Source: Phycisphaeraceae bacterium (GTDB lineage: Bacteria; Planctomycetota; Phycisphaerae; Phycisphaerales; Phycisphaeraceae). Taken from it: 64,000 nt of DNA. Position 1 is the first letter of the stretch. Each line of letters opens with the position of its first letter. Location: assembly GCA_020851735.1 (NCBI GenBank), contig JADZCD010000053.1:28112-92111 (forward strand). The letters run 5' to 3'. The translations under genes and the position numbers were made by a program. Below the pieces are notes generated by a model that was not told the origin of the DNA, made no database searches, and worked only from the letters and a program-made list of their open reading frames with translations. This document shows, in pieces, positions 31,586 to 55,649 of the stretch.

Positions 31586-31829
31586 CCGGCCAACAGTCAT
31601 TGATTCCCGACTTTTGCCGTCCGGCCTGACAACGCCACGCCCGCGCCACCGGCAAAGTCTTTGCCCAGTTACACAGCGTCAGGCTGGATCCCCCCGCCTC
31701 TGGCAAGCCCCTGGAGCCTATGGTATACAAGGTTGGGATGAACCGATGGCCCCAGGGCCTGCGCCCGTCCCGCAACGCATAGAACCTCCCTAGAAAACAA
31801 CCTATTGACCCATGCAAGGAGTTGACGCC

Positions 31830-33383: not shown

Positions 33384-34751
33384 GTGGACCATCAAACATC
33401 ATCTGGAACCCAGACTCCTCACCCCGTGACCGCCCGCACACGACGCCGAACGCTATTCTGCGACGATGTCCGCCCGCATCGGCCCGGAGCCCTGCTTAAG
33501 TGGCTGGCGCTCGCCTGCACGGTCTTAGCGCTGGCCGGGAGCTGTTACCTTTGGCTATGGCATGCCCGCGGCCCCGCCGGCATCGGCTGCGGCCTGAGCA
33601 ATTGTGGATCGGTCCTGGCATCACGCTGGGCGCTATGGTTCAGCCTGCCTGTATCGGCCTTAGGAGCAGCCATTTACTTGGGCATGGCGGTAGCGCTAAG
33701 CCTCAACCTTGATGCCCCCCTGCCCACACGCTGGGCCCACAGACTCCTGGGAACCCTGGCCGTCACCGTCGCGGCAACCGCCCTGTGGTTTGTCCTGCTC
33801 CAGGCATTCGTCCTGCATGCCTTCTGTCTGTATTGCACCTTCGTACACGCCAATGGTCTTATCGCCGCCATGCTTACCCTGCTTCAACTTCATGGCCCAT
33901 CCGAGCGCCTGCGCGGTCCGCGCTGGCCGCTTTCCGCCGCCGGAGGGCTCGGCCTGTTCCTGGTGCTCGTCATCGGTCAACTCCTAAGTCCGCCCCCCCA
34001 GGCCACGGTCCACGTGATTGACACCGCCCTGCCGGCCAATCCGTCCGGACCCGAGGGCGCCATCACCCTGCCCGGCGGCACGATGATTCAAACTCGCCAG
34101 TGGCCAAGGATGGGCCCGACCGACGCGCCGCACGTCCTGGTTGTCTTCATGGATTACATGTGCGGATTGTGTCGCAGCGAACATGAGCGTCTAAGCACCG
34201 TGGTCCGCGACTTTGACGGCCAGGTGGCCGTGGTCCTGATGCCGTTTCCCCTGGAAATGACCTGCAATTCCCTGATGACCGACAAAACCAACAACAAACC
34301 CGACGCCTGCGCCATGGCACGCCTGGCCCTGGCGGTCTGGAAACTGGCGCCCGACTCCTTCCGCAGTTTCGATGATTTTCTCATGGCGCCGCCCGCCTCG
34401 CTGCTGCTGGGCAGCCCCACGTACCACGCCCAGATTGTCTCCGTGCCCGCCGCCCGCCAATACGCCGAGCGTTTGACGAACGCGGCAGACCTGCGCCAAC
34501 TCCTGGACAATTCGCAGGAGTTGAATCAGATGATCGCCGCCAGCATTCGCGCCCTGGGCGCCATTCCTCTGCCCGACAAGCTCCTGCCCACCATCGTCAT
34601 AGGCCAAACGGTGATCCAAGGGCCCATCAAATACGAACAGCTCTGCGCCGCCATCGAATCCACCTTCGGCATTCGCCGGACCCATGTCACCACCACCGCC
34701 GCCCCATCCGCCGAGGACACGGAAGACGCAGCCGATCCCAACGACAATTAA
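33384..34751 (+). CDS. VKOR-DsbA/thioredoxin fusion, disulfide-forming membrane protein
   Basis: The protein is 455 aa, starting at GTG 33384 with AGGGAGG (33371-33377) 6 nt upstream. Residues about 38-200 form several membrane segments with the vitamin K epoxide reductase layout: loop cysteines C69 and C74 and the quinone-side pair C148-x-x-C151 (AFCLYC). After a last membrane segment (about 185-202) comes a periplasmic thioredoxin/DsbA-like domain with C260-x-x-C263 (MCGLC). Such natural fusions couple quinone reduction to oxidation of exported cysteines. It converges on the Cys-rich RiPP locus, so it could oxidise that product, but a general role in disulfide formation is equally possible. 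The acidic Thr-rich C-terminal tail has no recognised function. Confidence 0.88.
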   Translation: MDHQTSSGTQTPHPVTARTRRRTLFCDDVRPHRPGALLKWLALACTVLALAGSCYLWLWHARGPAGIGCGLSNCGSVLASRWALWFSLPVSALGAAIYLGMAVALSLNLDAPLPTRWAHRLLGTLAVTVAATALWFVLLQAFVLHAFCLYCTFVHANGLIAAMLTLLQLHGPSERLRGPRWPLSAAGGLGLFLVLVIGQLLSPPPQATVHVIDTALPANPSGPEGAITLPGGTMIQTRQWPRMGPTDAPHVLVVFMDYMCGLCRSEHERLSTVVRDFDGQVAVVLMPFPLEMTCNSLMTDKTNNKPDACAMARLALAVWKLAPDSFRSFDDFLMAPPASLLLGSPTYHAQIVSVPAARQYAERLTNAADLRQLLDNSQELNQMIAASIRALGAIPLPDKLLPTIVIGQTVIQGPIKYEQLCAAIESTFGIRRTHVTTTAAPSAEDTEDAADPNDN

Positions 34752-34871: not shown

Positions 34872-36593
34872 TCAGCTCGTTAAGCCCATACGCCCTTGCG
34901 CCCGATCCGTGATCAACCGTCTTACCTCGGGCGTCATGATCCTCTTAAACTCCCCGGTCTTATCCAGCTTGGCGATGTCCGCAAAGTCACGAATCGTAAA
35001 ATTCAGATACGCCCTGCGCTTGACCTGTCCCCCGGAATCCATCAGCTCCAGGCGATACACGTTGTCGCCGGCCATCAGCTTCAGGCGCCACCCCTCGCCG
35101 ATCCCGTGCACCTCAAATCGTCGATACCTGACCTGCAGCCGCTTGCCTTCAGGCTCCACCTTTTGATCCTCCACAAGAATCCGACACGCCCCCCCCGCCG
35201 CACGATCGCCCAGGTCCACCGTCGTGCCGAACACGCCAATCTCGTTTGGCGCAAGGCTCCCTAGAAGTTGTCCCGTCCGGGCCTGGGAATCGGGCCCTGA
35301 GCGCATGACCGTAAACGGATCCACGTGAATGCCTGTCATCGACTGCGGGCCCGGCCGGGCGGAACCTTCCTCAACATAGATAGAAATCGCCCGTGTCTGA
35401 TTGGCCAGCCGGTACGCCGCTTCGCGCTGTTCCAGCTGGCGATAGAAACTCTGGTTGTTCGATAAATTAGGCCAGGGCAGCCACGAGTTCATCATCTGCA
35501 TGCTATGGCGATACAACCCCATGATGGCAGCCCCGCGATCCGCCGTCGCCATTAAGTTCCGGCTGTTAAACCAAAACTTGGCTTCCACGTGGTCCTGGCC
35601 GGCCAAGAACGACAGCAGCCGCATGTCCGCATCCGCATCCAGCAGATCCATCGTGATCGGTTGTTGGCCGACATAACACTCCGCCGGCAACACGTAGAAC
35701 ATCACCACCAGTTTTCGAAAATGCGCCCCTAGAGCCAGCACGTCCTCAGCGGCCATCCTCTCCTGCGCGTCATTGATCGATAACTCAAAGTCAAACCTCT
35801 TGCCCTCCAGCAGTTCCAACAACCGCGGCAGGTTAAGAGCCGAGAAGTTCGCGAACACATTGACACACGCGAATCGCCCCTGACACTTCTCAAGCGTGCG
35901 GACAAAATCCCGCTCGGACAACAGCGCAAAATGATCCTCCGCACACCATCCCGTGGCCGACCTGTTGCTCAGCAGGCAGTAGCGACACATCCGGTTAAAA
36001 CAGGATTTTAGAATGATCGAAGGAAAATAATGATTCTCCGCAAACCGCCAGCTGCCTAGGGAAGCCAGCGCATCCTGGAACTGCAGGTATTCGCTTAGCC
36101 CCGCAAACCAGTCCAACGTCAGGCCGTCGAGTTCCGCCAGCGTCGGCGCTGTGACCTTATACCGACCTTGCGATATCCCAGCTCTGCTCCGAATGTTCGG
36201 AACATGCTCGCCAATCCACGCCTCATCCCGCCCCGCGCAAACCGCCTCGATAAGCTGCATAAACGGCATTTCGTAGTCGCCAAGCAGCGCGTAGTCTACA
36301 CCGACCTCGTTGACCAGATACTCCCCGAACGTCTGGCTCAGATATCCGCCGACAATAACGGGGATCCGCCTTCCCGTCTGACGAACCATCTGCACCATCT
36401 GCCTAAGGTAAAAGTAATTCCAGTCCCAATGAACGTGAAACACCACCGCCTGGGCATCCTTGAGCACTTCGGGCGTTAACTCAAAATAGTAGATGCCTTT
36501 CTTAGGCTGCTTAAGCAGATTAGCCGCTTCGATCATGCCGATGGGCATGATCCCGTCCGACTCCAGACCCCGCGTGTTCACAAGCAATATCAT
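34872..36593 (-). CDS. B12-binding-like radical SAM protein with atypical CX4CX2C motif
   Basis: The protein is 573 aa. The start at 36593 is preferred because the N-terminus MILLVNTRG begins a Rossmann (cobalamin-binding-like) domain and AGGA lies upstream; the longer frame adds 57 residues that overlap nothing conserved. Residues 1-130 resemble the B12-binding fold (VIVGGYLSQTFG, YALLGDYE). The cluster cysteines are C198, C203 and C206 (SCFNRMCRYC), codons at 36000-36002, 35985-35987 and 35976-35978. That is CX4CX2C rather than the usual CX3CX2C. No DxHxxG cobalamin motif is obvious, so cofactor use is unsure. It is the last gene of the minus-strand RiPP locus, 49 bp after the kinase gene. 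The substrate may be the precursors, but this is inferred from position. Confidence 0.75.
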   Translation of the reverse strand: MILLVNTRGLESDGIMPIGMIEAANLLKQPKKGIYYFELTPEVLKDAQAVVFHVHWDWNYFYLRQMVQMVRQTGRRIPVIVGGYLSQTFGEYLVNEVGVDYALLGDYEMPFMQLIEAVCAGRDEAWIGEHVPNIRSRAGISQGRYKVTAPTLAELDGLTLDWFAGLSEYLQFQDALASLGSWRFAENHYFPSIILKSCFNRMCRYCLLSNRSATGWCAEDHFALLSERDFVRTLEKCQGRFACVNVFANFSALNLPRLLELLEGKRFDFELSINDAQERMAAEDVLALGAHFRKLVVMFYVLPAECYVGQQPITMDLLDADADMRLLSFLAGQDHVEAKFWFNSRNLMATADRGAAIMGLYRHSMQMMNSWLPWPNLSNNQSFYRQLEQREAAYRLANQTRAISIYVEEGSARPGPQSMTGIHVDPFTVMRSGPDSQARTGQLLGSLAPNEIGVFGTTVDLGDRAAGGACRILVEDQKVEPEGKRLQVRYRRFEVHGIGEGWRLKLMAGDNVYRLELMDSGGQVKRRAYLNFTIRDFADIAKLDKTGEFKRIMTPEVRRLITDRAQGRMGLTS

Positions 36594-36642
36594 GGCTATT
36601 CCTGTATGCCTTAGGCTGAGAGCTTCCGTCCCTGGGCCGTGC

Positions 36643-37686
36643 CTATGCCACAAACAGCCCGTGTTCGTTGATCCATTCCTCCACCTGCTTGACCATGCCG
36701 GCCAATTGCGTCCGGTTGATGTTCTGCACGCCCAGGCGCCCGAAATGCTTAGCCTCACCCCCAAGGTTCCAGATCAGTCTGGCCACCACCCAGGGATTGA
36801 TGTTGGCCGGCAGAACGGTCTCCGCCCGCCCTCCGCCCTCCAGATAACCTTTGACAAAAGCCCGCCAGCCCGCCTGGCTGATGCGCCTGGCGCTCAGCAC
36901 CAGACAAACCGCCGCCAAGTCGTACCCGCGCCAGCCATACCCACAGGTCTCAAAGTCAAAAAACACCGGCCAATCGCCGGCATCCAGCGCCATGTTGGAG
37001 ATGTGCAGATCACCATGACACAAGCCATACTCTCCCTGCCTCCCCTCGACCGAGAACCACCGGCTCATCGCCGCCCCCACACGGGACAGCACCTCCACCG
37101 CCGGCTTCACGTCGGCCAGCGCAGCCATGGCCACACGCAGGGGTTCCTCAATCACATAACCTAAATCCAGGATGGGCCGATCCAGGGCTCCCGGCGCCTT
37201 GTCGAAAGCCCGGTGCATCTTTGCCACCGCTTGCCCCCACCGGCCGCAGATGGGCTCGGTCAATTGCCAGAACCTCGGCGCCGCCGCTTGCGCAAACAAC
37301 ACGCCGATGCGTTGGCCCTCCGGTGCCAGCATCCGTATCTGCCGGATTCCCTCCGCCGCTGGCACACAGGCCGCCGCCTTAATGCCCGCCGCCCGCGCCA
37401 GGTCGATCACGTCCAACTCCGCTTCCACTTCCTCCGCTCGGCGCCGCCCGCAGCCGTACAAACGGAAGTACCAGCGACGCGCGTCCAGACGCAGTTCATA
37501 CGTGTCGTTGACACTGTGATTGTAAAGACAACCCGCCACCGCGCCGTCCAGGCCATAAGCTTGCCTGACCAGCTGCGTCACCGCGCGGGCCTCGAGCACC
37601 GAAAACGCCACCGTCGCCGCCATCGGTTGGCCATCGTCAGAAGGTTGGGCCAATTTGGGTTGAACCGTCAATTGAAAGGGCGACAT
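36643..37686 (-). CDS. APH-fold phosphotransferase (kinase) in the RiPP locus
   Basis: The protein is 347 aa with the aminoglycoside phosphotransferase/choline kinase fold. The catalytic loop is H224-G-D-L-H-x-x-N231 and the metal-binding Asp is D244 in FFDFETCGYG. The N-lobe includes a variable nucleotide-binding region around NHSVNDTYEL (residues 56-65). It sits between the two Rossmann-type radical SAM genes in the same direction, with gaps of 49 and 69 bp, so it is probably co-transcribed. It could phosphorylate the peptide, a small-molecule partner, or serve as self-resistance. Family members range from antibiotic to homoserine and sugar kinases, and the sequence does not settle the substrate. 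Confidence 0.78.
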   Translation of the reverse strand: MSPFQLTVQPKLAQPSDDGQPMAATVAFSVLEARAVTQLVRQAYGLDGAVAGCLYNHSVNDTYELRLDARRWYFRLYGCGRRRAEEVEAELDVIDLARAAGIKAAACVPAAEGIRQIRMLAPEGQRIGVLFAQAAAPRFWQLTEPICGRWGQAVAKMHRAFDKAPGALDRPILDLGYVIEEPLRVAMAALADVKPAVEVLSRVGAAMSRWFSVEGRQGEYGLCHGDLHISNMALDAGDWPVFFDFETCGYGWRGYDLAAVCLVLSARRISQAGWRAFVKGYLEGGGRAETVLPANINPWVVARLIWNLGGEAKHFGRLGVQNINRTQLAGMVKQVEEWINEHGLFVA

Positions 37687-37755
37687 GTGGTGTTCCGCTC
37701 ACATTAGGGCTGCATGCGCAGGCAATCCGCTTCGTGACGACGTATCGCTCCCCAC

Positions 37756-39678
37756 TTATTCCACCGCGCTTACTTCCTGATCCGTGGCCGCAGCCAGCCG
37801 GCCGCGCCCCGGCGACAGGTGCCTGGGCTGGAGCACCAGACTCAGATATCGGTGACCTTCCACAAACAACAGGCCAAACCGATCCAAATCCTCCAGGCAA
37901 TCGCGCACCTGCTGTTCCGATGTCTCCGGCAAGCTGTACGCCAGCCGCGGAATGGATCGCGGCGACTCCAGCTCACGCAACAAGCGCGCCGCCAGCGGGC
38001 TCAAGGGAACCTCGCGCACCTCTCCCGACCGTGAATCATGCACCACCAGACCCGTCGGCCGCTCTCGAATCTCCAATTTCGGCGCCAGCTTGCCATCTCG
38101 GCGCTGCCAGCGCTTCTTCCATTGCTCCACCGCGCCCGCCACCTTGATCCCCCATGGAACTAACTCCGCATACCCTTTCTGATATTCTCCGTCATCCTCA
38201 AAATAGTAAGCCAACTGCTTTAGATCCTCCTCCGGGAATGGATACAGCAACGCATATCGCGCCCGCGGACGAAGCTTAAGCCCATATTGTTTGGCGCGTC
38301 GAAAATACTGGCTGTAGCGGTAAAACAGAATCATGTCGACCGACGACGGCGGCGCCAGGTGCGTCAACCGCGGAAAGTCCTGCAGATACTTGGCGTACGT
38401 CTCCGCCGCTTCCCCAATGGATCCCAACAGCAACTGCCATTGACACAACAGCCCTTCGAACTGGGCGCAATCCTTAAGGAACCTGATATTCGCAAAGGCG
38501 TCATGTCCCTTGGACATCAATCTCAGGGTTGAACTCGCCAGCGCCTCAATCCCCGGCGCCAGGGTGCGCACACCCGCCTGGGCCATCACCGCCAACTGCT
38601 CCTGATTGAGCACGGGCTTAACTTCATAGGAAAGATGAATTCCCTCCGGGATCTGCAGCACCGGCCAGAGCGTCTGGATATAGTCCGTGGGCATGATGGC
38701 ATCCACCGCCAAGATGCCGCTGATCCGCTCGCTGTAACCCAACAGGTGTTCGATATGCGCCCGCGCCCGTGACGCGCTCATGGCCTGGTACTTCATAGCC
38801 GTGCCGTTGTACCCGCAGAACGTGCAGGCGGCCTTCTGGCCCCACCAGCAACCCCGCGATGTCTCCAGCAGCAGCACCGGCCGGCCCAGCTCCCCGACGT
38901 GCTTTTCATAAGATTGCAGAAAATCGTCGTAGTGCAGCAAAGGCGCCTGGTCGATCTCCGCCGGGCTGCCCCATTGGTCCGGACATCTGCCCACATACCT
39001 GCCCATTTTCTCCCGCGCGTACACTCCCTCGATGGCGTGGCAGGCATCCAAATCATTCTTAAGCAGCCCGCGCACCAGCCGCGGCAGAGTCTGCAGCGAC
39101 GGGCCGGAGAACACGAAATTGATCGCCTCCACGTGTTTGGCGATCACCTGGCCCATGGGAGCCTCGCAGTTCGGCCCGCCCGCCACCGTTACGATCTGCC
39201 GCGCACGCAGCTTAAGCTTCCTGGCCATCGCAAAAGACGCGTTCTGTTGCATGGACACGATCGAAAACCCCACCAGGTCATACCGGTCCAACGCGTACTG
39301 GTCGATCATCCGATCCAGAAACGCGTCAAACTCGTCCCGGCGGTTGGCCAGGTGTTCGAACATGCGCTGGCCCTGCCCGGATCCAAAGAAACGCTCGAAT
39401 TGCGCCAGATACGCCTGGCGGTTGTCCGACGCCTTGGGAAACGCCGCCTGCCGGAACAGCCAGTTGCCCAGCCCCGCGGTCACCGCCGTCGTCTGCGAGG
39501 CCAGCTGTTCCGCCCGCTGCGGCCCCAGCACACTGGCGAAATCGTGATTGAGGTAGATGATGTCCACATCCACCTGCCCGGGCAGCTCGCGATTTAGCGC
39601 CGCCTTTAATTGCGTCAAGCCCAGCGACGGAAACCGCGACATGGCCACCGGCATGTTCAAGAGGGCGATCCGATACAT
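37756..39678 (-). CDS. B12-type RiPP-maturation radical SAM enzyme (rSAM-ocin 1-like C-methyltransferase)
   Basis: The protein is 640 aa, with GGGAGA 7 nt before ATG 39678. The N-terminal half has a cobalamin-binding-like Rossmann fold (YDLVGFSIVSMQQNASFA, residues 133-150; VAGGPN, 165-170). The radical SAM motif is SRGCWWGQKAACTFCGYNG with C277, C285 and C288 (CX7CX2C). This is the signature of ribosomal-peptide maturation radical SAM protein 1, whose members are annotated as RiPP radical SAM C-methyltransferases. The C-terminal 90 residues (LSPLAARLLREL to GLLFVEGHRYLSL) look like a winged-helix, PqqD-like part that could bind a leader peptide. Its presence independently marks the neighbourhood as a RiPP locus. 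Confidence 0.85.
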   Translation of the reverse strand: MYRIALLNMPVAMSRFPSLGLTQLKAALNRELPGQVDVDIIYLNHDFASVLGPQRAEQLASQTTAVTAGLGNWLFRQAAFPKASDNRQAYLAQFERFFGSGQGQRMFEHLANRRDEFDAFLDRMIDQYALDRYDLVGFSIVSMQQNASFAMARKLKLRARQIVTVAGGPNCEAPMGQVIAKHVEAINFVFSGPSLQTLPRLVRGLLKNDLDACHAIEGVYAREKMGRYVGRCPDQWGSPAEIDQAPLLHYDDFLQSYEKHVGELGRPVLLLETSRGCWWGQKAACTFCGYNGTAMKYQAMSASRARAHIEHLLGYSERISGILAVDAIMPTDYIQTLWPVLQIPEGIHLSYEVKPVLNQEQLAVMAQAGVRTLAPGIEALASSTLRLMSKGHDAFANIRFLKDCAQFEGLLCQWQLLLGSIGEAAETYAKYLQDFPRLTHLAPPSSVDMILFYRYSQYFRRAKQYGLKLRPRARYALLYPFPEEDLKQLAYYFEDDGEYQKGYAELVPWGIKVAGAVEQWKKRWQRRDGKLAPKLEIRERPTGLVVHDSRSGEVREVPLSPLAARLLRELESPRSIPRLAYSLPETSEQQVRDCLEDLDRFGLLFVEGHRYLSLVLQPRHLSPGRGRLAAATDQEVSAVE

Positions 39679-39731
39679 GGCGCATCTCCCACGGGCGAGG
39701 TCCGACAGCCGGGTGGATAAACAGGGCAGCC

Positions 39732-40553
39732 TTACTTGGACGCCCCAACGATGGCAATCAGCTCAACGTCAATCCACAACGCCGCATACGCCGGCACCTT
39801 CTTGTTCAAGCCCTGCTCTCCGTACGCCAGGTCAGGCCGCAGCGCGATCTCCCAGCGTGCCCCTTCCCCCATCATCAATAGCGCCTGCGCCATGCCCTTG
39901 GGTAACGAAGACACCAACACCTCCGCCGGCTGCGCCGCCTGGCGCGTATCGTCCACCACCGTGCCATCGCCCAACGACATGGTGTAATGAATCCGCACGC
40001 TGTCCGTCTCGCTGGGATGAAGCGGCTTGCCCTCGGCGATCACCCGATAGAGCAGCCCGTTATCCGCCACGCGCACGCCCTCCCGCTGCGCAAACTTCTC
40101 CATGTCCTCCTGGTTCAGTTGCAGCTGCTTCTTGCGCTGGCGCTCGCTGCGATCCAAAGCCACCTGCTTTTGCACGTCATACTTGATCTGCTCCAGTTGC
40201 TCTTCATTGAACGGCACGCGGTTGTCCAACAGATCGTCGATGCCTCGGACAATCAGCTCCTTGTTCTGCTTGAGTGTGGGGAACATGCGTAAGAGTGCCC
40301 GCGACGTTTCGAATCCAGCCATATAAGCCACCTTCTCCGCCGGCGTGGTCAGGGTAAATCCACCTTCGCCCACGATAGGCGTAAACGGAGACTGCTCCTT
40401 GGGCTTGGGCCGCTCCCGTGCCGCTTTCGGCGCCGTGGCCGTCGGCTGCGTGTCCGCGGGCTTCGCGTCACTCGCCGACTTGGCCATCACCGTCATCATC
40501 AGCACCAGACCGCCTACGCCTAATCCAACGAACCACACCGAGCGCTTAGCCAT
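39732..40553 (-). CDS. FKBP-type peptidyl-prolyl cis-trans isomerase, membrane-anchored or exported
   Basis: The protein is 273 aa, with AAGGAG 7 nt before ATG 40553. One N-terminal hydrophobic helix (FVGLGVGGLVLMMTVMA) serves as signal or anchor, followed by a Lys/Pro/Thr-rich linker. Residues about 70-150 form an FKBP-N-like helical dimerisation domain and about 165-270 the FKBP domain (VRIHYTMSLGDGTVVDDTR, MGEGARWEIALRPDLAYGE, LWIDVELI). It lies in the middle of the radical SAM locus with 50-odd-bp gaps on both sides. A folding helper for the Pro-containing, Cys-rich exported peptide is plausible; it may also be an ordinary envelope foldase. Confidence 0.88.
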   Translation of the reverse strand: MAKRSVWFVGLGVGGLVLMMTVMAKSASDAKPADTQPTATAPKAARERPKPKEQSPFTPIVGEGGFTLTTPAEKVAYMAGFETSRALLRMFPTLKQNKELIVRGIDDLLDNRVPFNEEQLEQIKYDVQKQVALDRSERQRKKQLQLNQEDMEKFAQREGVRVADNGLLYRVIAEGKPLHPSETDSVRIHYTMSLGDGTVVDDTRQAAQPAEVLVSSLPKGMAQALLMMGEGARWEIALRPDLAYGEQGLNKKVPAYAALWIDVELIAIVGASK

Positions 40554-40605
40554 TGCCTTGCTCCTTTTATGCGCAACCAGAATCCATCCCGATCACATCC
40601 ACTGC

Positions 40606-41502
40606 TCACATCCCTCCCGTCGCCCTGGGCGCCCCTGCGTGCGCTACATGTTCTTCCGCCTTGTCATCCTTCAGCTTGAACTTCCTGACCAGACAGATCC
40701 CACAGCGGCACTGCGCGCATGTCTGGTAGTTCTCCGCCGCCGCGCCGCATCCCAGGAGAGGTTGGAGGTCGCGTTGCTTAGCCAGCCGCCTGCCCGCCAG
40801 CATCGCCATCCACTCCTCGCATAAATCCTCAATGTCCCGACCGTAGATTTGTGCAACCACCTGCCCCCATGCCCCTGGCTGTCGCCACATGGCTCTGAAC
40901 TTCTCCAACTCATGCATCTCCAGCAGATACCCCGCAAATGACGCGTCAATCAGCCGATCCTGCTTGTCCAGCGTCTGGCCCCGGCATATTCGATCCCGCA
41001 GCCTGGCCCGGCCGCCGTCCGAACCCGCCAAGTCCATCGCCAACCCGTGCAGTCTCACATCCGGCCGGGAGAAATACGTCGCCACCGCCTCCTCAAGCAT
41101 TCCCCCCCCCGGCCGCCCTCCCAGCGCGTGATACGAAACAAAGTGGGCAATCTCATGCCCCAGCGTATTCCACGGATGAAGGTGAATCGTCATGGACGGA
41201 AAATGCAGGTACGCCAGTTTCGTCGCCGTGCGCTCCCTGGCTGTCTCCACCGACAAGTACATCTCCAGCCGCAGTTCGTGCCCGCTGTGCCCGCCCAGCA
41301 CGTGTTCAATGATCAGCCTGGCCAGCGCATAGCCGTGCACCGCGCGGCGCCACAGCTCGGCACACTCCACGTGGCCATGCACCCGCATCCGCACCGCCGG
41401 GGCGTCAAGCACAAACAACGATTCCGGATAGCCATGCCCCTCATCCCTGTTCAAGAACATGGTCTTAACCTGCTCTGGATGCCGGCAAAGTACCTGTTTC
41501 AT
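40606..41502 (-). CDS. HEXXH zinc-metalloprotein with Cys-rich tail, candidate RiPP peptidase
   Basis: The protein is 298 aa. The start at 41502 is supported by GAGGAAG just upstream; this site overlaps the TGA of the preceding radical SAM gene, suggesting translational coupling. LGHEIAHFVSYHALGG gives H116-E117-x-x-H120, with acidic residues near 137-138 (MLEEAVATYF) as the likely third zinc ligand, a gluzincin-like layout. No signal peptide is seen. The C-terminus carries a cysteine cluster (CGAAAENYQTCAQCRCGICL), unusual for such peptidases and suggestive of a second metal site or of redox or peptide binding. Because it is wedged between radical SAM genes it is a candidate leader peptidase. 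I do not recognise a named family. Confidence 0.65.
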   Translation of the reverse strand: MKQVLCRHPEQVKTMFLNRDEGHGYPESLFVLDAPAVRMRVHGHVECAELWRRAVHGYALARLIIEHVLGGHSGHELRLEMYLSVETARERTATKLAYLHFPSMTIHLHPWNTLGHEIAHFVSYHALGGRPGGGMLEEAVATYFSRPDVRLHGLAMDLAGSDGGRARLRDRICRGQTLDKQDRLIDASFAGYLLEMHELEKFRAMWRQPGAWGQVVAQIYGRDIEDLCEEWMAMLAGRRLAKQRDLQPLLGCGAAAENYQTCAQCRCGICLVRKFKLKDDKAEEHVAHAGAPRATGGM

Positions 41503-41509
41503 CGCTTCC

Positions 41510-42859
41510 TCACTGGCCTGCCTGGCCCATCGCCTCACGCTTGGCCTGCATCAACGCCGCGATTCCCAACGCCGTCTCATACATGGCACGCAGGTAATCA
41601 CACAGGGCCTGATGCGCCCCCGTCATGTCGCAGCCGAAATCCATCTGCTCGCACAGATTCCGTCCCCGGCACAGCGGCCACGCCCAGCAGAAGCCGCACT
41701 TCATCAGCACTCCCTTGCGCGTCGCCGCCCACCGCTGCAAGGCCGCCGGATCATCCCCCTTCCACACGTCGCCCAGCACGTACTGCGGCATGCTCATGAA
41801 GGCGTAGCACGGATACAGCTTGCCGTCGATGTCCACCGTGCGCCCCCCCACCCCCAGCGAATTGCAGTCCCGATCATGGTCCGGCCCGCCGAATAATCGA
41901 TTGATCGCGCCACGGAACGGATCGTGCAACACCAGCCTGCCGCTTGCCACCCGCTCCCGCAGCAGCGGCAAATATTCCTGATACTGCCCGATCAACTGCT
42001 GATAGTCCGCCGCCTGCAGCGCCCCGCACGCGTCACCGCTTAAGCCCGTGTGCTGATAGGACAACTTCAGCGACGTCACCCCCAGCTCTTCGAAATACCG
42101 GACCCGTTCGGCAATGGTCGGCCCGTGCGGCGTCCACACCGCGCTGATGTGCAGCTCGCCGGTGCGCTGCAATACCCGCTTGGCCGCTGCCTCGACCTTG
42201 TCGTGCGACCCGCGCCGGGCCCCGCGCAACGGACGGTGCCGATCATGCGCCTCGGCCGGCCCATCCATGCTGATCTGTATGCTGAACGGATACTTAACCA
42301 GCTTATCCAGCAAGGCGTCGGTCAACGCCACCCCGTTGGTCAGCAACGAGAAAATCCGATATTGCCCCCCGCCCTTTTGATACGCCCGATACACATAATC
42401 GCACATTTCCTCCATCACCGGCCGATTCATCAGCGGTTCCGCCCCCGTAAAGCGAATCCGTGAGTTCTTGCCCTCGGCAATGCGTGGCATTAACCGGTCA
42501 ATGGCCTGCTTGGCGGTCGCCGCGGACATCCGTCGGGTCGCATGGTCGGAGAGCTTGCGGCCCTGAAACATCATGCAATAGTCGCAGTCCAAGTTGCATT
42601 CGTGCGTCAGAATCAGGTCAATGGCCATGAGCGGACGGGCCGCTATTTCCTCCCCCGGGGGCACCACGATGTCGCCAGGCCATTCCGTGGCTCCCTTCTT
42701 GCCCGTGTCCTGCTGGGCAAACCAGGCTTTGATTTCCTCCGCGGAACTGTCCGAGCCGGCTGCCGCCAGCAACCGGTTGGTCTGCGGGCAGTAGTGAAGC
42801 TGACGCCCGAACCTGCTGAAGGAGTGAACGCTCAAGGGTCTATCGGTAGGCGGAGCCAT
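41510..42859 (-). CDS. Radical SAM/SPASM peptide maturase 2
   Basis: The protein is 449 aa. ATG 42859 is chosen over an upstream ATG (42871) because GGGAGGA sits 4-5 nt before it. The radical SAM core has C88-x3-C92-x2-C95 (THECNLDCDYC), RFTGAEPL and an SMDGP strand. The C-terminal SPASM region has CNSLGVGG, then GKLYPC, then CGFCWAWPLC with a further C-x5-C spacing (CRGRNLC) where SPASM proteins usually show C-x3-C, and later cysteines in FGCDM and ALC. SPASM enzymes bind auxiliary 4Fe-4S clusters and commonly crosslink or cleave peptides (sactipeptides, ranthipeptides, PqqE). It lies just after the precursor genes and a terminator. Confidence 0.9.
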   Translation of the reverse strand: MAPPTDRPLSVHSFSRFGRQLHYCPQTNRLLAAAGSDSSAEEIKAWFAQQDTGKKGATEWPGDIVVPPGEEIAARPLMAIDLILTHECNLDCDYCMMFQGRKLSDHATRRMSAATAKQAIDRLMPRIAEGKNSRIRFTGAEPLMNRPVMEEMCDYVYRAYQKGGGQYRIFSLLTNGVALTDALLDKLVKYPFSIQISMDGPAEAHDRHRPLRGARRGSHDKVEAAAKRVLQRTGELHISAVWTPHGPTIAERVRYFEELGVTSLKLSYQHTGLSGDACGALQAADYQQLIGQYQEYLPLLRERVASGRLVLHDPFRGAINRLFGGPDHDRDCNSLGVGGRTVDIDGKLYPCYAFMSMPQYVLGDVWKGDDPAALQRWAATRKGVLMKCGFCWAWPLCRGRNLCEQMDFGCDMTGAHQALCDYLRAMYETALGIAALMQAKREAMGQAGQ

Positions 42860-42916
42860 GCTTCCTCCCATGCCAAGCCATGTCGCGGTTATTGCCCGCG
42901 GTGGTGATTGTCTGGA

Positions 42917-42960
42917 TAAAAAGCGGTCCGACCGAGCGCGGGTGCACCCGGTCGGACCGC
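42917..42960 (-). terminator. Rho-independent terminator downstream of the precursor genes
   Basis: A perfect 12-bp inverted repeat, GCGGTCCGACCG (42923-42934) and CGGTCGGACCGC (42949-42960), encloses a 14-nt loop. On the minus strand it is followed by TTTTT (42922-42918). It separates the precursor genes from the downstream maturase gene, so partial read-through would give precursor mRNA in excess over enzyme mRNA. Confidence 0.88.
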
Positions 42961-42965
42961 GTGCT

Positions 42966-43064
42966 TTACGATCGCCGACCGTCAGGCCCTGAGGACTGAT
43001 CCGTACGCCTTGGTTTCGGCCGCGTCCGGGGTGAGGGTCCCAGACGCGTCTTTTCGATCACCAT
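42966..43064 (-). CDS. Possible 32-aa small peptide gene
   Basis: ATG 43064 follows a strong TAGGAGG with 4 nt between (7 nt to the adjacent GTG at 43061). The frame runs 32 codons to TAA 42968-42966, ending 6 bp before the terminator hairpin. The peptide begins MVIEKTRLGP, is rich in Arg/Pro/Ser and ends in TDQSSGPDGRRS. It has no Cys or Trp, so it is not a paralogue of the two precursors. It could be a third substrate, a regulatory leader peptide, or chance. It resembles nothing I know. Confidence 0.4.
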   Translation of the reverse strand: MVIEKTRLGPSPRTRPKPRRTDQSSGPDGRRS

Positions 43065-43092
43065 CGGGCCTCCTAAGGCGATCTATTTCCGA

Positions 43093-43287
43093 TTACCAGC
43101 TGCAGCGATAACAGTTGCAGTCGCCGGCGGCGTCAAGCCACCAGTTCGGGCAGCAGCCGTCATGGCAGGAACCTTCGCTGCCGCACCAGCTGGCGCAGAC
43201 CCAGTCCGCGCTGTTGGCGCTGCAACGCGCGATCGGGCCCTGTTCGTTTTCCACGGCGTTCACGAGCTTGAAAGTCTTGGTCGTCAT
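43093..43287 (-). CDS. Cys-rich RiPP precursor peptide A (64 aa)
   Basis: ATG 43287 has AGGAG 10 nt upstream. The peptide has nine cysteines at 22, 31, 35, 41, 45, 46, 57, 59 and 62. The first 21 residues (MTTKTFKLVN, then AVENEQGPIAR) are charged, Cys-free and leader-like. The core contains CGSEGSCHDGCCPNWW and ends NCYRCSW. It is a paralogue of the peptide at 43446-43640 with every cysteine conserved. A longer frame starting at 43398 has no ribosome site and is not conserved in the paralogue. Flanking SPASM radical SAM genes on both sides support a maturation substrate. Small size, paired copies and a following terminator are all typical of RiPP precursors. Class and modification are unknown. 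Confidence 0.85.
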   Translation of the reverse strand: MTTKTFKLVNAVENEQGPIARCSANSADWVCASWCGSEGSCHDGCCPNWWLDAAGDCNCYRCSW

Positions 43288-43331
43288 GATCCAATGACTC
43301 CTGATTCTTAAGGGATGAGTGTTCATCCGTT

Positions 43332-43444
43332 GTTCCCGACGTCGGGAACCCTGACGAACACGGAAACAAAGGGTGAATCCTGCGTGCCGCGGTTTCATCC
43401 TACGGGACGATCCCGCGGCTGATCGGTTACGACACGTTCAGCCG
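43332..43444. other. Two stem-loops between the precursor genes
   Basis: An 18-nt perfect palindrome GTTCCCGACGTCGGGAAC lies at 43332-43349, 45 bp before precursor A. A 7-bp stem (43416-43422 with 43438-43444) starts immediately after the precursor B stop codon. Neither has a U-tract on the minus strand, so they are more likely mRNA-stabilising or processing elements than full terminators. Confidence 0.5.
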
Positions 43445-43445
43445 A

Positions 43446-43640
43446 TTACCAGGTGCAGCGATAGCAGTTGCAGTCGCCGTTGGCGTCCACCCACCAGTTC
43501 GGGCAGCAGCCGTCATGGCAGGAACCTTCGCTGCCGCACCAGCTGAAGCAGAAGTTGTCCCAGCTGTTGGCGCTGCAACGCGCGATCGGAGCCTGTTCGT
43601 TTTCAACGGTGTTCACGAGCTTGAAAGTCTTGGTCGTCAT
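43446..43640 (-). CDS. Cys-rich RiPP precursor peptide B (64 aa)
   Basis: ATG 43640 has TAGGAG 9 nt upstream. The peptide is 64 aa with nine cysteines at exactly the positions of peptide A (22, 31, 35, 41, 45, 46, 57, 59, 62). The leader-like first 21 residues differ from A at only two positions. Most differences fall in the 27-32 block (WDNFCF here, ADWVCA in A), with smaller changes near 51, 54 and 63. Conservation of CGSEGSCHDGCCPNWW and the ending NCYRC-x-W suggests a fixed crosslink pattern with a variable first loop. The gene is 92 bp after the SPASM maturase 1 gene and 158 bp before precursor A. It arose by tandem duplication, the two copies being 353 bp apart. Confidence 0.87.
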   Translation of the reverse strand: MTTKTFKLVNTVENEQAPIARCSANSWDNFCFSWCGSEGSCHDGCCPNWWVDANGDCNCYRCTW

Positions 43641-43732
43641 GATTCAATTCTCCTAAGGGAATCTAAGGGTTGTTGGAACGATACGAACATCACACACCAA
43701 TCGATCTCCTGGGGATGGGCTACATCCCCGCG

Positions 43733-45286
43733 CTAGCGCAATCCCTGTGGCCGGTCGTTAACCGGCGCAACAGATGCGGCCGCGGACCCCGGATTCATGC
43801 AAGGCTCGACGTTGGGATCCTCCTGTCCGCAGATTCGTTTAAGAATGTCAGGGTTCTCCTTGGACATCTTCAGGAATGAACTGACGGTTCGTTCCCAGGA
43901 ATGGCGTATCGAATCGCATTCAGCCTTCGCCGGCGGGCGGAATTGGCCGTCCTCCGTCGCCCGGAAGCGATAACACCCGCCCAGACACAGAAAACGCGCC
44001 CAGCAATCCTGACAATGACTGGTCACCGCCTGGTGATAACGGCTGAAGTAGGTGCTGTAAGCCTGAATATCAAAACCCGTGCGCACGTTCCCCAATGCGT
44101 ACCCGGTCATCGGCCAGAAGCGATGACAGGGGTACAGCGTGCCGTCCGCGCCCACCGCCGTCCCGCTCGTGCAGGCCGAGCAGTGCTGCTGGTGCCGCAT
44201 CGGCGTCCTGCAGTTCAAGCGCTTAAAGCCAAAGGAATAAATGTCATACAGCGGCGTGCGGCCCGCGATCAGGTCCTGCAGGCACAAGGGCCGAATTTCA
44301 TCCGCCTCCATCACGTTGCGGCGCAGACTGTCGCTAAAGTCAAACGGCACGCTTCCGTCGCCGTTGGCCTTGGTGTCCATCACCGGGCCGATCAGATACG
44401 GCGGCGTGGCCCCCAGTTCATAGAAATACCGGCACAGCTCCCGTAAGGTCGGGCCCCCCGGCGTCTGCGTGGCCCGGATGTTCAGCGCCCCCGTCACGCG
44501 GCGGATCAGATTGGCAGCCTCCACCACCTGGGCATGACAGCCCTTGCCGTTTGGGTAAATGCGATGTTCATCATGAATCCACGCCGGCCCGTCAATGCTC
44601 AGCAGGATCGAACACTTGTTCTCGTGCAGATAACGGGCGATCGGCTCGGTCAGAAGCACGCCGTTGGTCGTCAACGTAAAGGAGTAGACGCGTCCCGTTT
44701 CCTTCGCCCGCCGCTTGACGTACTCGATGGTCGAACGCACCACGTCAAAATTCAGCAGCGGCTCGCCGCCGAAGAACGTCGCCCGGATCGCCGGCGCCTC
44801 CGGTGACATGTAACTGATCTCCATTTCAATGGCCTGATGCGCGATCTCCTCGGACATTAAGCGCGTGCTGTGGGCGTCCACCTGCAATCCCGTGTAGCAG
44901 TATCGACAGCGCAGATTGCACGCTTCCGAAACCATCAGCGTGATCGACGAAATGCGAATCGTGTTCTTGTTGAACTCCGCCACGTCCGGCATATACGGCA
45001 GCATGCCCGCGGTCCGCACCGTGTAGGGAGCCAGGTCATGCAACGACTGCTTGATCTCCTCCTTGACCTCCTCCGGCCAATTGGTCTGGTCCACCATCTG
45101 CCAGGGATTCAGCCCCGTGTCCTGCGGCTGCTGCTCCCATTGGCCGAGAATGTGCAGCAAACGGTCATCGGTGATTTCAATCACCCGCGCGTGGTCCAGG
45201 GACAACATCACTCTTTCGCCTTGAGCGCGAAACACGTGGAATTCCCGGCCAAAAATGGGCGCACTTTCTACGGCTGTGTGGGTCAC
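43733..45286 (-). CDS. Radical SAM/SPASM peptide maturase 1
   Basis: The protein is 517 aa. The start is GTG 45286, with CGGAGGA (45291-45297) 5 nt upstream; the ATG at 45355 lacks such a site. The N-terminal 100 residues resemble the pre-domain of SCIFF/QhpD-type maturases (FHVFRAQGERVMLSLD). The radical SAM motif is SEACNLRCRYC (C123, C127, C130), followed by FFGGEPLLNF and SIDGPAWIHDEHR. The C-terminal SPASM domain is canonical: GTLYPC, then CQDCWARFLCLGGC (CX2CX5CX3C), then a late AEC. This architecture is known in enzymes that form thioether or other crosslinks from Cys-containing ribosomal peptides. As the gene directly before the precursors, it is the best candidate for the first modifying enzyme. 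Confidence 0.92.
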   Translation of the reverse strand: MTHTAVESAPIFGREFHVFRAQGERVMLSLDHARVIEITDDRLLHILGQWEQQPQDTGLNPWQMVDQTNWPEEVKEEIKQSLHDLAPYTVRTAGMLPYMPDVAEFNKNTIRISSITLMVSEACNLRCRYCYTGLQVDAHSTRLMSEEIAHQAIEMEISYMSPEAPAIRATFFGGEPLLNFDVVRSTIEYVKRRAKETGRVYSFTLTTNGVLLTEPIARYLHENKCSILLSIDGPAWIHDEHRIYPNGKGCHAQVVEAANLIRRVTGALNIRATQTPGGPTLRELCRYFYELGATPPYLIGPVMDTKANGDGSVPFDFSDSLRRNVMEADEIRPLCLQDLIAGRTPLYDIYSFGFKRLNCRTPMRHQQHCSACTSGTAVGADGTLYPCHRFWPMTGYALGNVRTGFDIQAYSTYFSRYHQAVTSHCQDCWARFLCLGGCYRFRATEDGQFRPPAKAECDSIRHSWERTVSSFLKMSKENPDILKRICGQEDPNVEPCMNPGSAAASVAPVNDRPQGLR

Positions 45287-45556
45287 AGGGTCCTCCGTTG
45301 TTGCTTGGGACAGGTGTAACGCGGTGTGATTTGAGCTGGGCTTTTCCCGACTCATCCGCTCGACACCCGATTTGTGACCATGCCCGCCGCCGGGACCCTG
45401 CCCTTGCCAAGATCAGCAGGTCTCCGCCATCCGCTCAGCCGTTCTTGCGTTGCTCTAGAAATGCTCCCCCACCCCGCCGATACCCTCCGCCACGCGCATC
45501 CTGCCGCCTTGCGCGTGGTTTAGGCGCATCCTCTGGCTGCTGACGATCCCGCGCTG
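45287..45556 (-). promoter_or_regulatory. Upstream region of the RiPP locus
   Basis: This 270-bp gap separates the efflux operon from SPASM maturase 1 and must hold the RiPP promoter unless transcription reads through from tolC. The only site I can support is the CGGAGGA ribosome site at 45291-45297. I see no convincing -35/-10 pair, no strong tolC terminator and no convincing gene. Confidence 0.35.
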
Positions 45557-46996
45557 CTAAGGTAAATCGCCGGCCGCGCTGTCGGAAATGGCCGGCTGCG
45601 TAGCCGGTGAAAGCTCGGTAAAAACCCGCGGCATCGAACCAATGCTGCGCATCAGCTCCAGGTAATAGATCGTCGCGTCGTAACGTTCCGAGGTTAATCG
45701 CAACTCCGCCGCCAGCAGCCGATCCTGCGTGTCCATGCGATCAAGATTCGTCGCCAACCCCTGATCGTAGGACTGATTGACGATCTCCATGGCCCCGCTG
45801 GCCGCGGCGATCTGCGATTCAATGTCGCCGATGCGCTGCAGACTCGCCGTCCAGTCCGCATGGGCCACGCGCACCTGCTGGGCCACCTGCCCAGCCAGCG
45901 CCGCCCTGGCCAACACCGCCTGGCGAAAACGCGACCAGGCCGTGCGCACGTCCGCGTGGATCCGCCCGCCGGAAAAGATCGGCACCTTCGCCGTGATCAA
46001 AGCCGTCGCCAAGCTGTCCTGCGGGAATGACTCGCGGTACGTGTAGGTATCCAGGTTAACCGACACGGAAGGGTAATACTGGGCGAACGCGGCATCGACG
46101 CCTTTGCGGGCCACCAGCACCGCCTGCTCCGCCGCCAACAAATCCTCCCGTTCCCGGCCCGCCTGCTTTAAGAGCTCCTCGAGGTCCAGCCCCTGGGGGC
46201 CCGCCGAGAAACCATCGCCCAGCTTGCCCGCCACATAGGGCACGCCCAGCAGCGTCGCCAGCGTGGCCCGACCCTTGGTCACCGCCACCCGCGCGTCAGC
46301 CAGCCGCACGCGCGTGTCCGCGGCCTGGGCTTTGGTCTGCTCTAAGTCCAGCTTGCGGGCCACGCCCTGCGCCAATCTGTCCGCCACATCCCGGACTCTT
46401 GCCTCCTGCACGGAAAGCGAATTCTCCAGCACCCCCACCGCGTGCTCAGCCTTAAGCACCGTGTAATACGTCTGGGCCACTTCCAGCAGCAGCGTGGCCT
46501 GCATGTCCAGCAACATCAGCCGCGCCTCTTCCGTCGACAGTTTGGCCGCCTTTAAGCGGGCCACGTCGCGAAACCCGTTGAACACATTCGCCTGCGCATT
46601 GACCGGCACATCCAGCGTATGCTGCGGGAACATGTCTCTGGATCCCCCCGGCGGCAGCTTGAAGTATTCCATGTTCGTATACCGCGGCGCCAGGGAAATC
46701 GTCGGCAGAAATTCCGCAAACGCCCGGTCCTTGTCAATCAAAGCCTGCACGTAATCCTCCCCGCGGATGGCCAGCTGCTGATTATCCCGGTTGGCCATCG
46801 CCATCGCTTCCCGAAGCGTCAACGTCTGCTCCGCCTCGATCGGTGCCGCCGCCGCCAGCGTGGCCCCCGGGCGATGCTCGTCAAGCTGCGCCCGGTACAG
46901 AGCGACTTCCTTGTCCTGGTCAACCTTGCAGCCCGTCGCCGGCAGGATCGCCGGAACCAGCAGACTCAACGTGATGATTAGACGTTTTCCCTGCAT
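45557..46996 (-). CDS. TolC-family outer-membrane efflux lipoprotein
   Basis: The protein is 479 aa. The signal sequence ends in PATGC (Cys 23), a plausible lipobox, so this is probably an outer-membrane lipoprotein of the OprM/TolC type. Two homologous long helical regions follow (about 60-265 and 270-460) with the family pattern LTLREAMAMANRDNQQL and QYYPSVSVNLDTY. It ends the efflux operon, 13 bp after emrB. In such tripartite pumps it forms the outer-membrane channel docked on the HlyD-family adaptor. A Thr/Gln-containing tail is typical of this genome. Confidence 0.9.
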   Translation of the reverse strand: MQGKRLIITLSLLVPAILPATGCKVDQDKEVALYRAQLDEHRPGATLAAAAPIEAEQTLTLREAMAMANRDNQQLAIRGEDYVQALIDKDRAFAEFLPTISLAPRYTNMEYFKLPPGGSRDMFPQHTLDVPVNAQANVFNGFRDVARLKAAKLSTEEARLMLLDMQATLLLEVAQTYYTVLKAEHAVGVLENSLSVQEARVRDVADRLAQGVARKLDLEQTKAQAADTRVRLADARVAVTKGRATLATLLGVPYVAGKLGDGFSAGPQGLDLEELLKQAGREREDLLAAEQAVLVARKGVDAAFAQYYPSVSVNLDTYTYRESFPQDSLATALITAKVPIFSGGRIHADVRTAWSRFRQAVLARAALAGQVAQQVRVAHADWTASLQRIGDIESQIAAASGAMEIVNQSYDQGLATNLDRMDTQDRLLAAELRLTSERYDATIYYLELMRSIGSMPRVFTELSPATQPAISDSAAGDLP

Positions 46997-47009
46997 GGGC
47001 GCTGCTTTC

Positions 47010-48653
47010 TTAATGGACCGGCGTCTTGCCGTCGGATTTCACCGCAGCCATCAATGGAATCAGCAAAAGGGGAATCACAATAATCAGCGCCAACCAGCGC
47101 GCCACGTCGTTAAAGCTGATCATCGCCGCCTGGCGGGTGATCATCTGGTTGACCGCCACCAGCGTCTGCGGACTCACCGCCGCCGTCGCCGCCCCCGCCG
47201 GGTCCAGCATCCCTTCCATCCCGCCCAGCGCATTCCGCAGCACCGGGTTGTACGGATTGATCTGCTCCGCCAGCACGCTGTGGTGATACTGCGTGCGCTG
47301 CACCAGCCAGGTATTGGTTAGCGCGATCCCCACGCTCCCGCCGATGTTGCGCATCACGCTGAGCATGGAGGACCCCACGTTGTTCTTGTTCAGCGGCAGC
47401 CCGTGATAACTTAAGGTGGTGATGGGAATAAACAGAAACCCCAGGCCCGCGCCTTGAAATATCCGGGCCCACATGGCGTGATTAAAGCTTAAATCCGCGG
47501 CAAACCCGCTCATGTGATACAGGGCGATAATCTGAATCATCAGTCCCACCGCCGCCAGGTAACGCAGCTGCACCTTGTGCGTCAACAACCCGACCAGCGG
47601 CATAAACAGCAGCGTGGCCATGCCGCCGGGCGTCAGCACCATCCCCGAAAGCATCGCCGTATACCCGTGGCTGCTCTGCAGCAGGATCGGCAAGAGCGTG
47701 GTGCTGCTGTAGAGCGTAAAGCCCAGCACAAACATCATCGTCAGGGCGATGCCGAACGTCCGATTGCTCACCAGCCGCACGTCCACCACCGGGTCCTTGG
47801 CATGCCACTCCCAGACCACCGCGCTGATCAAACACACCGCCGCCGACAACCCGAAGCCGCGAATGAACATGGACTCAAACCAGTCGTATCGTTGCCCGTT
47901 GCTGAGCATCACTTCCAGGCTCGCCAGCCCCAGCGCCACCAGGGCGAACCCGACGTAGTCGATCCTCAGCCCCTTCTTGAACATCTGCTGACGCTCCTCC
48001 ACCAGAGCCTTCGGCTCATGGACGAACTGCCAGGCCAGAAACAGCGACAAAAGCCCCACCGGCACGTTAATCAGAAATATCCAGTGCCAGCTGAACGAAT
48101 CGGTGATCCACCCGCCCAAGGTGGGGCCTAACGTGGGCGCCACCACCACCGCGATCCCATAAAATGCGAACGCCATCCCGCGCTTCTCCGGCGGGAACGT
48201 ATCCGCCAGCATGGACTGCTCGCAGGGAACCAGCCCCCCACCTCCCAACCCCTGCACCACGCGGAAGAAAATCAGCCATCCCAGGCTCGGCGCCAGGCCG
48301 CACAACAGACTGCTGACCGTGAAGATCGCCACGCAGCTCATGTAAAATCGCTTGCGCCCGATGATGGTGGCCAGCCAGCCGCTCACCGGCAGAATAATGG
48401 CGTTGGCCACCAGATAGCTGGTCAGCACCCACGTGCTCTCATCCGTCGTCGCCGACAGGCTGCCGCCGATGTTGTGCAGCGACACGTTGGCGATGCTCGT
48501 GTCCAGCACCTCCATGAAGGTGGCAATGGACAAAATCAGCGTGATCAGCCACGGACTGTGATGCCCCGCCGCCGAACGCGCCGGCGTCCAGCGCGGAGCG
48601 ATCGCCGCGGGTTTGGTTTGCTTAGCCGAGAGATTGGCGGCAGTGGTGCTCAT
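47010..48653 (-). CDS. emrB: MFS drug efflux permease, DHA2/EmrB-QacA family
   Basis: The protein is 547 aa with 14 predicted membrane segments. Family motifs include the D-x-x-x-V/A-N-V motif in FMEVLDTSIANVSL, motif A-like GWLATIIGRKRFY, RVVQGLGGGGLVPC and motif C-like GPTLGGWITDSFSWHWIFLINVPVG. DHA2 transporters are proton antiporters for hydrophobic drugs, dyes or peptides and pair with an EmrA adaptor. It lies between emrA (36 bp upstream) and tolC (13 bp downstream), a complete tripartite pump. The RiPP product is a possible substrate by position only. Confidence 0.92.
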   Translation of the reverse strand: MSTTAANLSAKQTKPAAIAPRWTPARSAAGHHSPWLITLILSIATFMEVLDTSIANVSLHNIGGSLSATTDESTWVLTSYLVANAIILPVSGWLATIIGRKRFYMSCVAIFTVSSLLCGLAPSLGWLIFFRVVQGLGGGGLVPCEQSMLADTFPPEKRGMAFAFYGIAVVVAPTLGPTLGGWITDSFSWHWIFLINVPVGLLSLFLAWQFVHEPKALVEERQQMFKKGLRIDYVGFALVALGLASLEVMLSNGQRYDWFESMFIRGFGLSAAVCLISAVVWEWHAKDPVVDVRLVSNRTFGIALTMMFVLGFTLYSSTTLLPILLQSSHGYTAMLSGMVLTPGGMATLLFMPLVGLLTHKVQLRYLAAVGLMIQIIALYHMSGFAADLSFNHAMWARIFQGAGLGFLFIPITTLSYHGLPLNKNNVGSSMLSVMRNIGGSVGIALTNTWLVQRTQYHHSVLAEQINPYNPVLRNALGGMEGMLDPAGAATAAVSPQTLVAVNQMITRQAAMISFNDVARWLALIIVIPLLLIPLMAAVKSDGKTPVH

Positions 48654-48689
48654 GGCGAAAAGCAGCCGAACAGTCCTTAGCCCTCCGGC

Positions 48690-50054: not shown

Positions 50055-50108
50055 AGTCATTCCTAACTGAAAAAATGCCGCAAAACAAGAGTGCTTGGTT
50101 CGGTCATT

Positions 50109-53891: not shown

Positions 53892-53976
53892 CTAAGTGCC
53901 CTTCTAGTCAAATCTCCGCCGCTACCCCAACTTGTGCCCATAGTAAGAGTAACGTAAATTGCATCCGAGGATACGC

Positions 53977-55203: not shown

Positions 55204-55649
55204 ATCGCGCGCAATAGGCGTCCTATCCACGCGGTGGAGTTAACTTCATGTTCCCACACGCGAAGCACGCTATAACCTTGCCGCCGCAGTTGTCGAGCGA
55301 TTCGTAGGTCACGACGTCTGTTCTCACTTATCTTCTTGACCCAAAATGCCCTCCTTGTTCTCGGCATTCTTCGCCGACAATAGGGGCATCCGTGCCAAAA
55401 ACAGCCATCAACGAAGATCACGATTTTCGCTCTGGGAAAATGAAAGTCTGGGCTTCCCACAACGTCGCGGTCATTCTGCACCCATCCAGACAACCCGATG
55501 GCGGCTAATTTTGCGGAAACTCTCGCCTCGGTTGAACGGTTCCGTTTGCACCCAATCCGCGACATGCGCTCAGATCGCTCGGCCTTGGTAAGCGGATCTG
55601 GGTGTTGAGGCTTTCCATTGTCGTGGTGTTTGACACCTAGTGGCGGCAT
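55179..55649 (-). CDS. vsr: Very short patch repair (Vsr-type) endonuclease
   Basis: The protein is 156 aa, normal Vsr length. The family opening DPLTKAERSERMSRI is followed by a conserved STEARV and the core VGSPDFHFPRAKIVIFVDGC, with the catalytic Asp in PDF and the zinc-binding FWHGCPYC. Classical Vsr nicks T:G mismatches from deaminated 5-methylcytosine. In MORC-containing systems Vsr-like proteins have been proposed as the restriction nuclease. It is convergent with the methyltransferase gene, has an AT-rich upstream region (TAGAAT close to the start) and is divergent from the ATPase gene. Confidence 0.92.
   Translation of the reverse strand: MPPLGVKHHDNGKPQHPDPLTKAERSERMSRIGCKRNRSTEARVSAKLAAIGLSGWVQNDRDVVGSPDFHFPRAKIVIFVDGCFWHGCPYCRRRMPRTRRAFWVKKISENRRRDLRIARQLRRQGYSVLRVWEHEVNSTAWIGRLLRAIQSRRAAS

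Follow-up and report, generated by a model that had tools for sequence, protein, structure and literature searches.

Nine consecutive genes on the minus strand of a Phycisphaeraceae bacterium contig (JADZCD010000053.1, assembly GCA_020851735.1) probably form a cluster for the biosynthesis of ribosomally synthesised and post-translationally modified peptides (RiPPs). They lie in a window of 64,000 nucleotides, by which we mean the whole stretch of DNA that was analysed. Two Cys-rich precursor peptides, A1 and A2, would be bound by a RiPP recognition element (RRE), bridged through their cysteines into thioethers by radical chemistry of a pair of SPASM-type radical S-adenosylmethionine (SAM) enzymes, B1 and B2, and C-methylated by a B12-type enzyme of family TIGR03975, with or without a further, TsrM-like enzyme. 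The genes, their families and motifs, and their close order on one strand (45355 down to 34872, no two neighbours more than 221 bases apart) were observed directly, and from these we infer that the cluster enzymes act on the peptides. The families and gene order of the locus exceed chance. An earlier reading made from the sequence alone had described two paralogous 64-residue peptides with nine Cys between two SPASM-type genes on one strand, accompanied by a B12-type RiPP radical SAM protein, an HEXXH protein, a kinase and an FKBP isomerase, and all of these genes were found. In order of transcription, with one further element, they are:

43733..45355, minus strand: B1, SPASM radical SAM maturase 1, with a predicted N-terminal RRE (PF04055, expect value (E) 5e-15)
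43446..43640, minus strand: precursor A1, 64 amino acids, 9 Cys (open reading frame, ORF)
43093..43287, minus strand: precursor A2, 64 amino acids, 9 Cys, 86% identical to A1 (ORF)
42923..42960, minus strand: terminator-like hairpin 3' of A2, 17 pairs then T5 (consensus scan only)
41510..42871, minus strand: B2, SPASM-type radical SAM maturase 2 (PF04055, E 1e-15)
40606..41538, minus strand: HEXXH protein, likely a metallopeptidase (HEIAH, then LEEA; no Pfam or NCBIfam match)
39732..40553, minus strand: FKBP-type prolyl isomerase with a hydrophobic N-terminus (Pfam)
37756..39678, minus strand: member of the TIGR03975 family of B12-type radical SAM C-methyltransferases (NCBIfam)
36643..37686, minus strand: APH-fold kinase (PF01636, E 3e-24)
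34872..36593, minus strand: Rossmann/B12-like protein with CX4CX2C (B12-binding match below cut-off)

The HEXXH gene overlaps B2 by 29 bases, and the hairpin after A2 means that the peptides could be produced in excess over the downstream enzymes. Radical_SAM matches number 24 in the genome, three of them within this stretch, and a single TIGR03975 member scores above the cut-off genome-wide.

The cysteines of A1 and A2 occupy the same positions (22, 31, 35, 41, 45, 46, 57, 59 and 62), nine within 43 residues, in patterns that include CxC, CC and CxxC, and the peptides carry a CCPNWW stretch. Nine of the 64 residues differ between the copies, none of them a Cys, and four of these differences fall at residues 27-32. 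Each ATG has AGGAG or AGGAGT just upstream. Past residue 21, A1 contains 5 Trp, 2 Phe, 1 Tyr and six Ser/Thr, and in both peptides four of the five acidic residues of this part precede a Cys by three positions, giving the common pairs D28-C31, E38-C41, D43-C46 and D56-C59. The probability of this spacing is p = 0.0035 for the one offset and 0.056 across 16 offsets. At E 0.1 no family was matched by A1 in Pfam or NCBIfam, or by A2 in NCBIfam, and the same scans gave no precursor match to a known leader family, Nif11/NHLP proteusin type included. The defence models matched neither the precursor nor the HEXXH protein, the kinase or the fourth radical SAM candidate.

B1 and B2 score 56.5 and 58.7 bits, respectively, against PF04055 (cut-off 29.5), and both carry CX3CX2C, at position 146 in B1 and 92 in B2. 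Cysteines in a pattern that fits SPASM follow at C448, C451, C457, C461 and C480 in B1 and at C392, C395, C401, C407, C414 and C424 in B2; B2 is called SPASM-type because of this pattern and its near full-length matches to SPASM families. The best NCBIfam profiles for B1 are PapB, QhpD and those of the nif11 and SCIFF maturases, and the same four head the list for B2 with weaker scores. Cyclophane and RumMC-type profiles match both enzymes too, at lower scores. A model of B1 built on its own clade (predicted local distance difference test, pLDDT, 77) has CteB (5why) as its best solved structure, and 5wgg aligned with B1 from its residue 8. The model places strands at 39-44, 47-52 and 57-61 and helices at 64-75, 77-80, 84-89 and 95-111, and this N-terminus, strands followed by helices, is predicted to be of RRE type, a fold defined by three strands and three helices. 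The sequence-only reading had ended the locus at 45286, which is an in-frame GTG at codon 24 of the B1 ORF and fits the N-termini of its relatives. B1 groups with seven proteins at 359-621 bits, the next scoring 202 bits; they come from sources lgn, ena and jgi, on contigs of 1.9-17.4 kilobases (kb) that we take to be metagenome assemblies. B2 is a paralogue of B1 (35% over B1 residues 136-492), and by BLAST score is about equally far from the B1 group and from other maturases.

Membership of the TIGR03975 gene in its family is clear, at 461 bits over the full length against a cut-off of 281.85, and its motif is CX7CX2C (C277, C285, C288). For the last gene of the cluster, the long ORF (34872-36764) runs into the kinase gene, and the start was set at 36593 to give 573 amino acids. 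It had been described as a fourth radical SAM enzyme with a Rossmann fold and a non-standard cluster motif. The motif (CFNRMCRYC, ie CX4CX2C) is there and the protein looks Rossmann-type; Pfam gave no Radical_SAM match and only a sub-threshold one to B12-binding. Fold ranking puts TsrM first, using a poor single-sequence model (pLDDT 44), and on that model the protein is likely to be a fourth radical SAM enzyme with the TsrM fold. No other protein was matched in the protein database, where scoring was confined to the 7997 candidates with most words in common, and no chain in the PDB. Five of 392 genomes of the phylum gave a match, its own included, the other four being of partial length (E 3e-9 to 8e-6). 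As judged from the searches made, it has no full-length sequence relative.

Two sets of neighbouring genes border the cluster:

33384..34751, plus strand: VKOR-DsbA fusion, beside the last cluster gene (Pfam)
45557..50060, minus strand: TolC, EmrB and EmrA genes, before B1 (profile matches)

By position only, the first is a possible disulfide-forming partner and the second a possible exporter. A C45-family autoproteolytic acyltransferase/hydrolase (31812-33149, plus strand; NF040521, 92.7 bits against 85) adjoins VKOR-DsbA. In the pathway we propose, the leader would bind the predicted RRE of B1, and B1 and B2 would then form Cys thioether bridges, for which the putative acceptors are the acidic residues three positions before Cys (D28, E38, D43 and D56). 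The TIGR03975 enzyme, perhaps together with the TsrM-like protein, would C-methylate the peptide, and the HEXXH protein may cut off the leader, at about residues 1-21. EmrAB-TolC may export the product, after which remaining cysteines may pair as disulfides outside the cytoplasm, helped by VKOR-DsbA and by the FKBP isomerase, which by eye is likely to be periplasmic and may assist folding, given the CCPNWW stretch of the peptides. The kinase may phosphorylate Ser/Thr of the peptide or give self-protection.

Several observations weigh against this pathway. The profile scores of the maturases fall short of the family cut-offs: for PapB (NF047865, cut-off 340) B1 reaches 232.9 and B2 154.8, for SCIFF (TIGR03974, cut-off 425) they reach 183.6 and 131, and for QhpD, second for B1, 203 bits were obtained of the 453 needed; the nif11 maturase score of B1 is likewise under its cut-off. 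The SPASM identity claimed for both from the sequence agrees with their Cys patterns, but PF13186 is below cut-off in B1 (E 0.0024, 18.5 bits against 21.5) and gave no match in B2. The CX3D/E spacing of freyrasin is missing, with no acidic residue at Cys+4 past residue 21. Cys-rich short frames are frequent in such DNA, and Cys-rich ORFs alone are not above chance. By our own arithmetic nine random changes would spare all nine Cys with a chance of about 23%, and the codon changes between A1 and A2 (2 silent, 9 non-silent; synonymous rate dS 0.12, non-synonymous rate dN 0.10) have no silent excess, so that selection on the peptide is unsupported. The hairpin would split the peptides from the downstream enzymes.

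These last points bear on a quite different account, in which A1 and A2 stay unmodified as a metallothionein- or knottin-like pair that binds metal or forms disulfides, with the radical SAM genes serving another substrate. The density of cysteines and their motifs, the want of a Pfam (A1) or NCBIfam (A1, A2) match, the hairpin and the absence of a silent excess all suit it, but the Trp-rich core, two flanking SPASM-type paralogues, a predicted RRE and a B12 enzyme of a RiPP family do not, and no other candidate substrate was noticed in the cluster, though no dedicated search was made; we consider it very improbable. Rather less remote, if still unlikely, is that the SPASM-type enzymes make C-C cyclophanes, sactionine (alpha) thioethers or epimers in place of non-alpha acidic thioethers, the cysteines ending as disulfides. 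The aromatic residues of the core, the weaker cyclophane and RumMC-type matches and the adjoining VKOR-DsbA gene point that way. Against it, the leading profiles together with the best structural match point mostly to non-alpha thioether maturases. The kinase offers another route, in which phosphorylation and elimination of Ser/Thr would give dehydro residues attacked by Cys in a lanthionine-like manner, the radical SAM steps being secondary. An APH-like kinase, TsaC, is proposed in PMC8153245 to act so in thioamitides, and the PF01636 match here is strong, but A1 has just six Ser/Thr past residue 21 and no HopA1-type partner was matched among the 13 proteins scanned with Pfam between 31.8 and 50.1 kb, unlike the kinase-HopA1 pair of the thioamitides and lanthidins; this too is improbable.

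Thioether bridging and C-methylation of the two peptides remain the reading we prefer, and known systems resemble parts of it. The ranthipeptides (freyrasin PapA/PapB, SCIFF CteA/CteB, NxxcA) likewise place a small Cys-rich precursor beside an RRE-SPASM maturase, and share with this cluster the CteB-like structure of B1 and the PapB profile that leads for both maturases. They differ in that the scores here are under the cut-offs, and that nine Cys, two maturases and B12 enzymes are present; SCIFF peptides have six Cys in forty-five residues. Freyrasin uses CX3D, according to PMC9413430, and PMC8326336 describes a link of Asn20 to Cys23 in NxxcA, where, as here, an acceptor-type residue precedes Cys by three, Asn in that case and acidic in ours. 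The same source reports that QhpD, whose profile ranks second for B1, forms Cys-Asp and Cys-Glu thioethers; the present cluster differs in its small free peptides, and no cluster protein scanned with Pfam and NCBIfam matches an amine dehydrogenase subunit. The CX7CX2C motif is given by PMC5682303 for PoyB and PoyC and as common to the polytheonamide and bottromycin methyltransferases, and the B12-type radical SAM enzyme here has it too. On the other side, the precursor here has no NCBIfam match, its core is Cys-rich and its maturases are SPASM thioether-type. TsrM, the thiostrepton tryptophan methyltransferase, is the best fold match of the fourth protein, from a poor model, and the peptides are Trp-rich. 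The fourth protein differs in having CX4CX2C in place of CX3CX2C, and in the PDB search it gave no sequence match. The substrate of TsrM is free tryptophan. By analogy, the cluster would resemble a ranthipeptide pathway joined to polytheonamide-type methylation, and is a tested member of neither. The assignment of the locus to RiPP biosynthesis in a combination without precedent has gained from the family matches and from the uniqueness of the combination among the genomes searched, but its parts are nearer to known classes than had been claimed.

Only tentatively do we suggest a new RiPP class, which would combine four [D/E]xxC staples set by the two SPASM enzymes, PoyC-like C-methylation, methylation of Trp or another sp2 centre by the orphan TsrM-fold CX4CX2C enzyme, and periplasmic disulfides. 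Should the predicted chemistry hold, one small genetically encoded scaffold would bring together two radical chemistries, B12 C-methylation and thioether bridging, and the orphan B12-type enzyme with its altered cluster motif would be an object of study. With all nine Cys kept and variation at residues 27-32, the pair could be a natural starting point for stapled peptide libraries made in laboratory E. coli.

The distribution of the locus was followed in samples of at most 400 genomes; for the seven proteins that group with B1, the comparison covered the proteins themselves. In the genomes searched the whole cassette was seen once and, as far as sequence comparison can tell, the precursors in this genome alone. 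The protein database returned for the precursor its own paralogue as sole candidate, in a search that needs shared exact words, and no match came from viral contigs or plasmids. In 298 genomes of the class there were, besides its own, two weak matches (E 0.001), which were rejected as chance since they lie inside unrelated long ORFs that we take by eye to be formate-tetrahydrofolate ligase and RecG. B1 was matched at E 1e-40 in one of 397 class genomes, its own, and its clade profile at E 1e-50 in 32 of 392 phylum genomes, its own included. In the genome-contig scan the matches listed for B1 were filled by SCIFF-type maturases, which does not imply absence elsewhere. Twenty of the 37 non-own B1 matches were compared together with their flanks; their B1 identity is 26-32%, and they held no other cassette member by tblastn at E 1e-3, which is insensitive for short peptides. 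There was no match to B1 in viral contigs, and in plasmids 227 records, all below 60% identity (best row 29%).

The TIGR03975 enzyme was matched at E 1e-40 in 17 of 392 phylum genomes, its own included, the best other at 42%. In the 17 stretches that hold 19 of its 23 non-own matches, no counterpart of the peptide, the HEXXH protein, the FKBP, the kinase or the fourth protein came up at E 1e-4. Two further phylum genomes have TIGR03975-like genes directly beside B1/B2-like radical SAM genes (L148, 7527-9868; L157, 7472-10613), as uncharacterised pairs. Among 79 genomes the HEXXH protein was matched in its own only. TolC gave four non-own matches in 21 genomes of the family, and one of the four stretches also has EmrA and EmrB; VKOR-DsbA gave 12, and the six stretches compared (28-34% identity) have no other gene in common. 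None of these 10 stretches carries a cassette gene, and no empty site could be derived from them. No such cluster was recognised by title or abstract start among the open-licence PMC papers listed.

Elsewhere in the window, an open frame of 10,517 codons (32-31585, plus strand), maybe cut at the window start, contains repeats that by eye are presumably LamG-like, CARDB-like and dockerin-like. At 53959-55649 a cytosine DNA methyltransferase adjoins a Vsr nicking endonuclease, and a gene at 55787-57613 is one which we take, by eye, to be HATPase-like. The guanine plus cytosine content is 53-54% at 54-58 kb, compared to 60-67% elsewhere in the window, and the low-GC methyltransferase/Vsr stretch looks like an acquisition.
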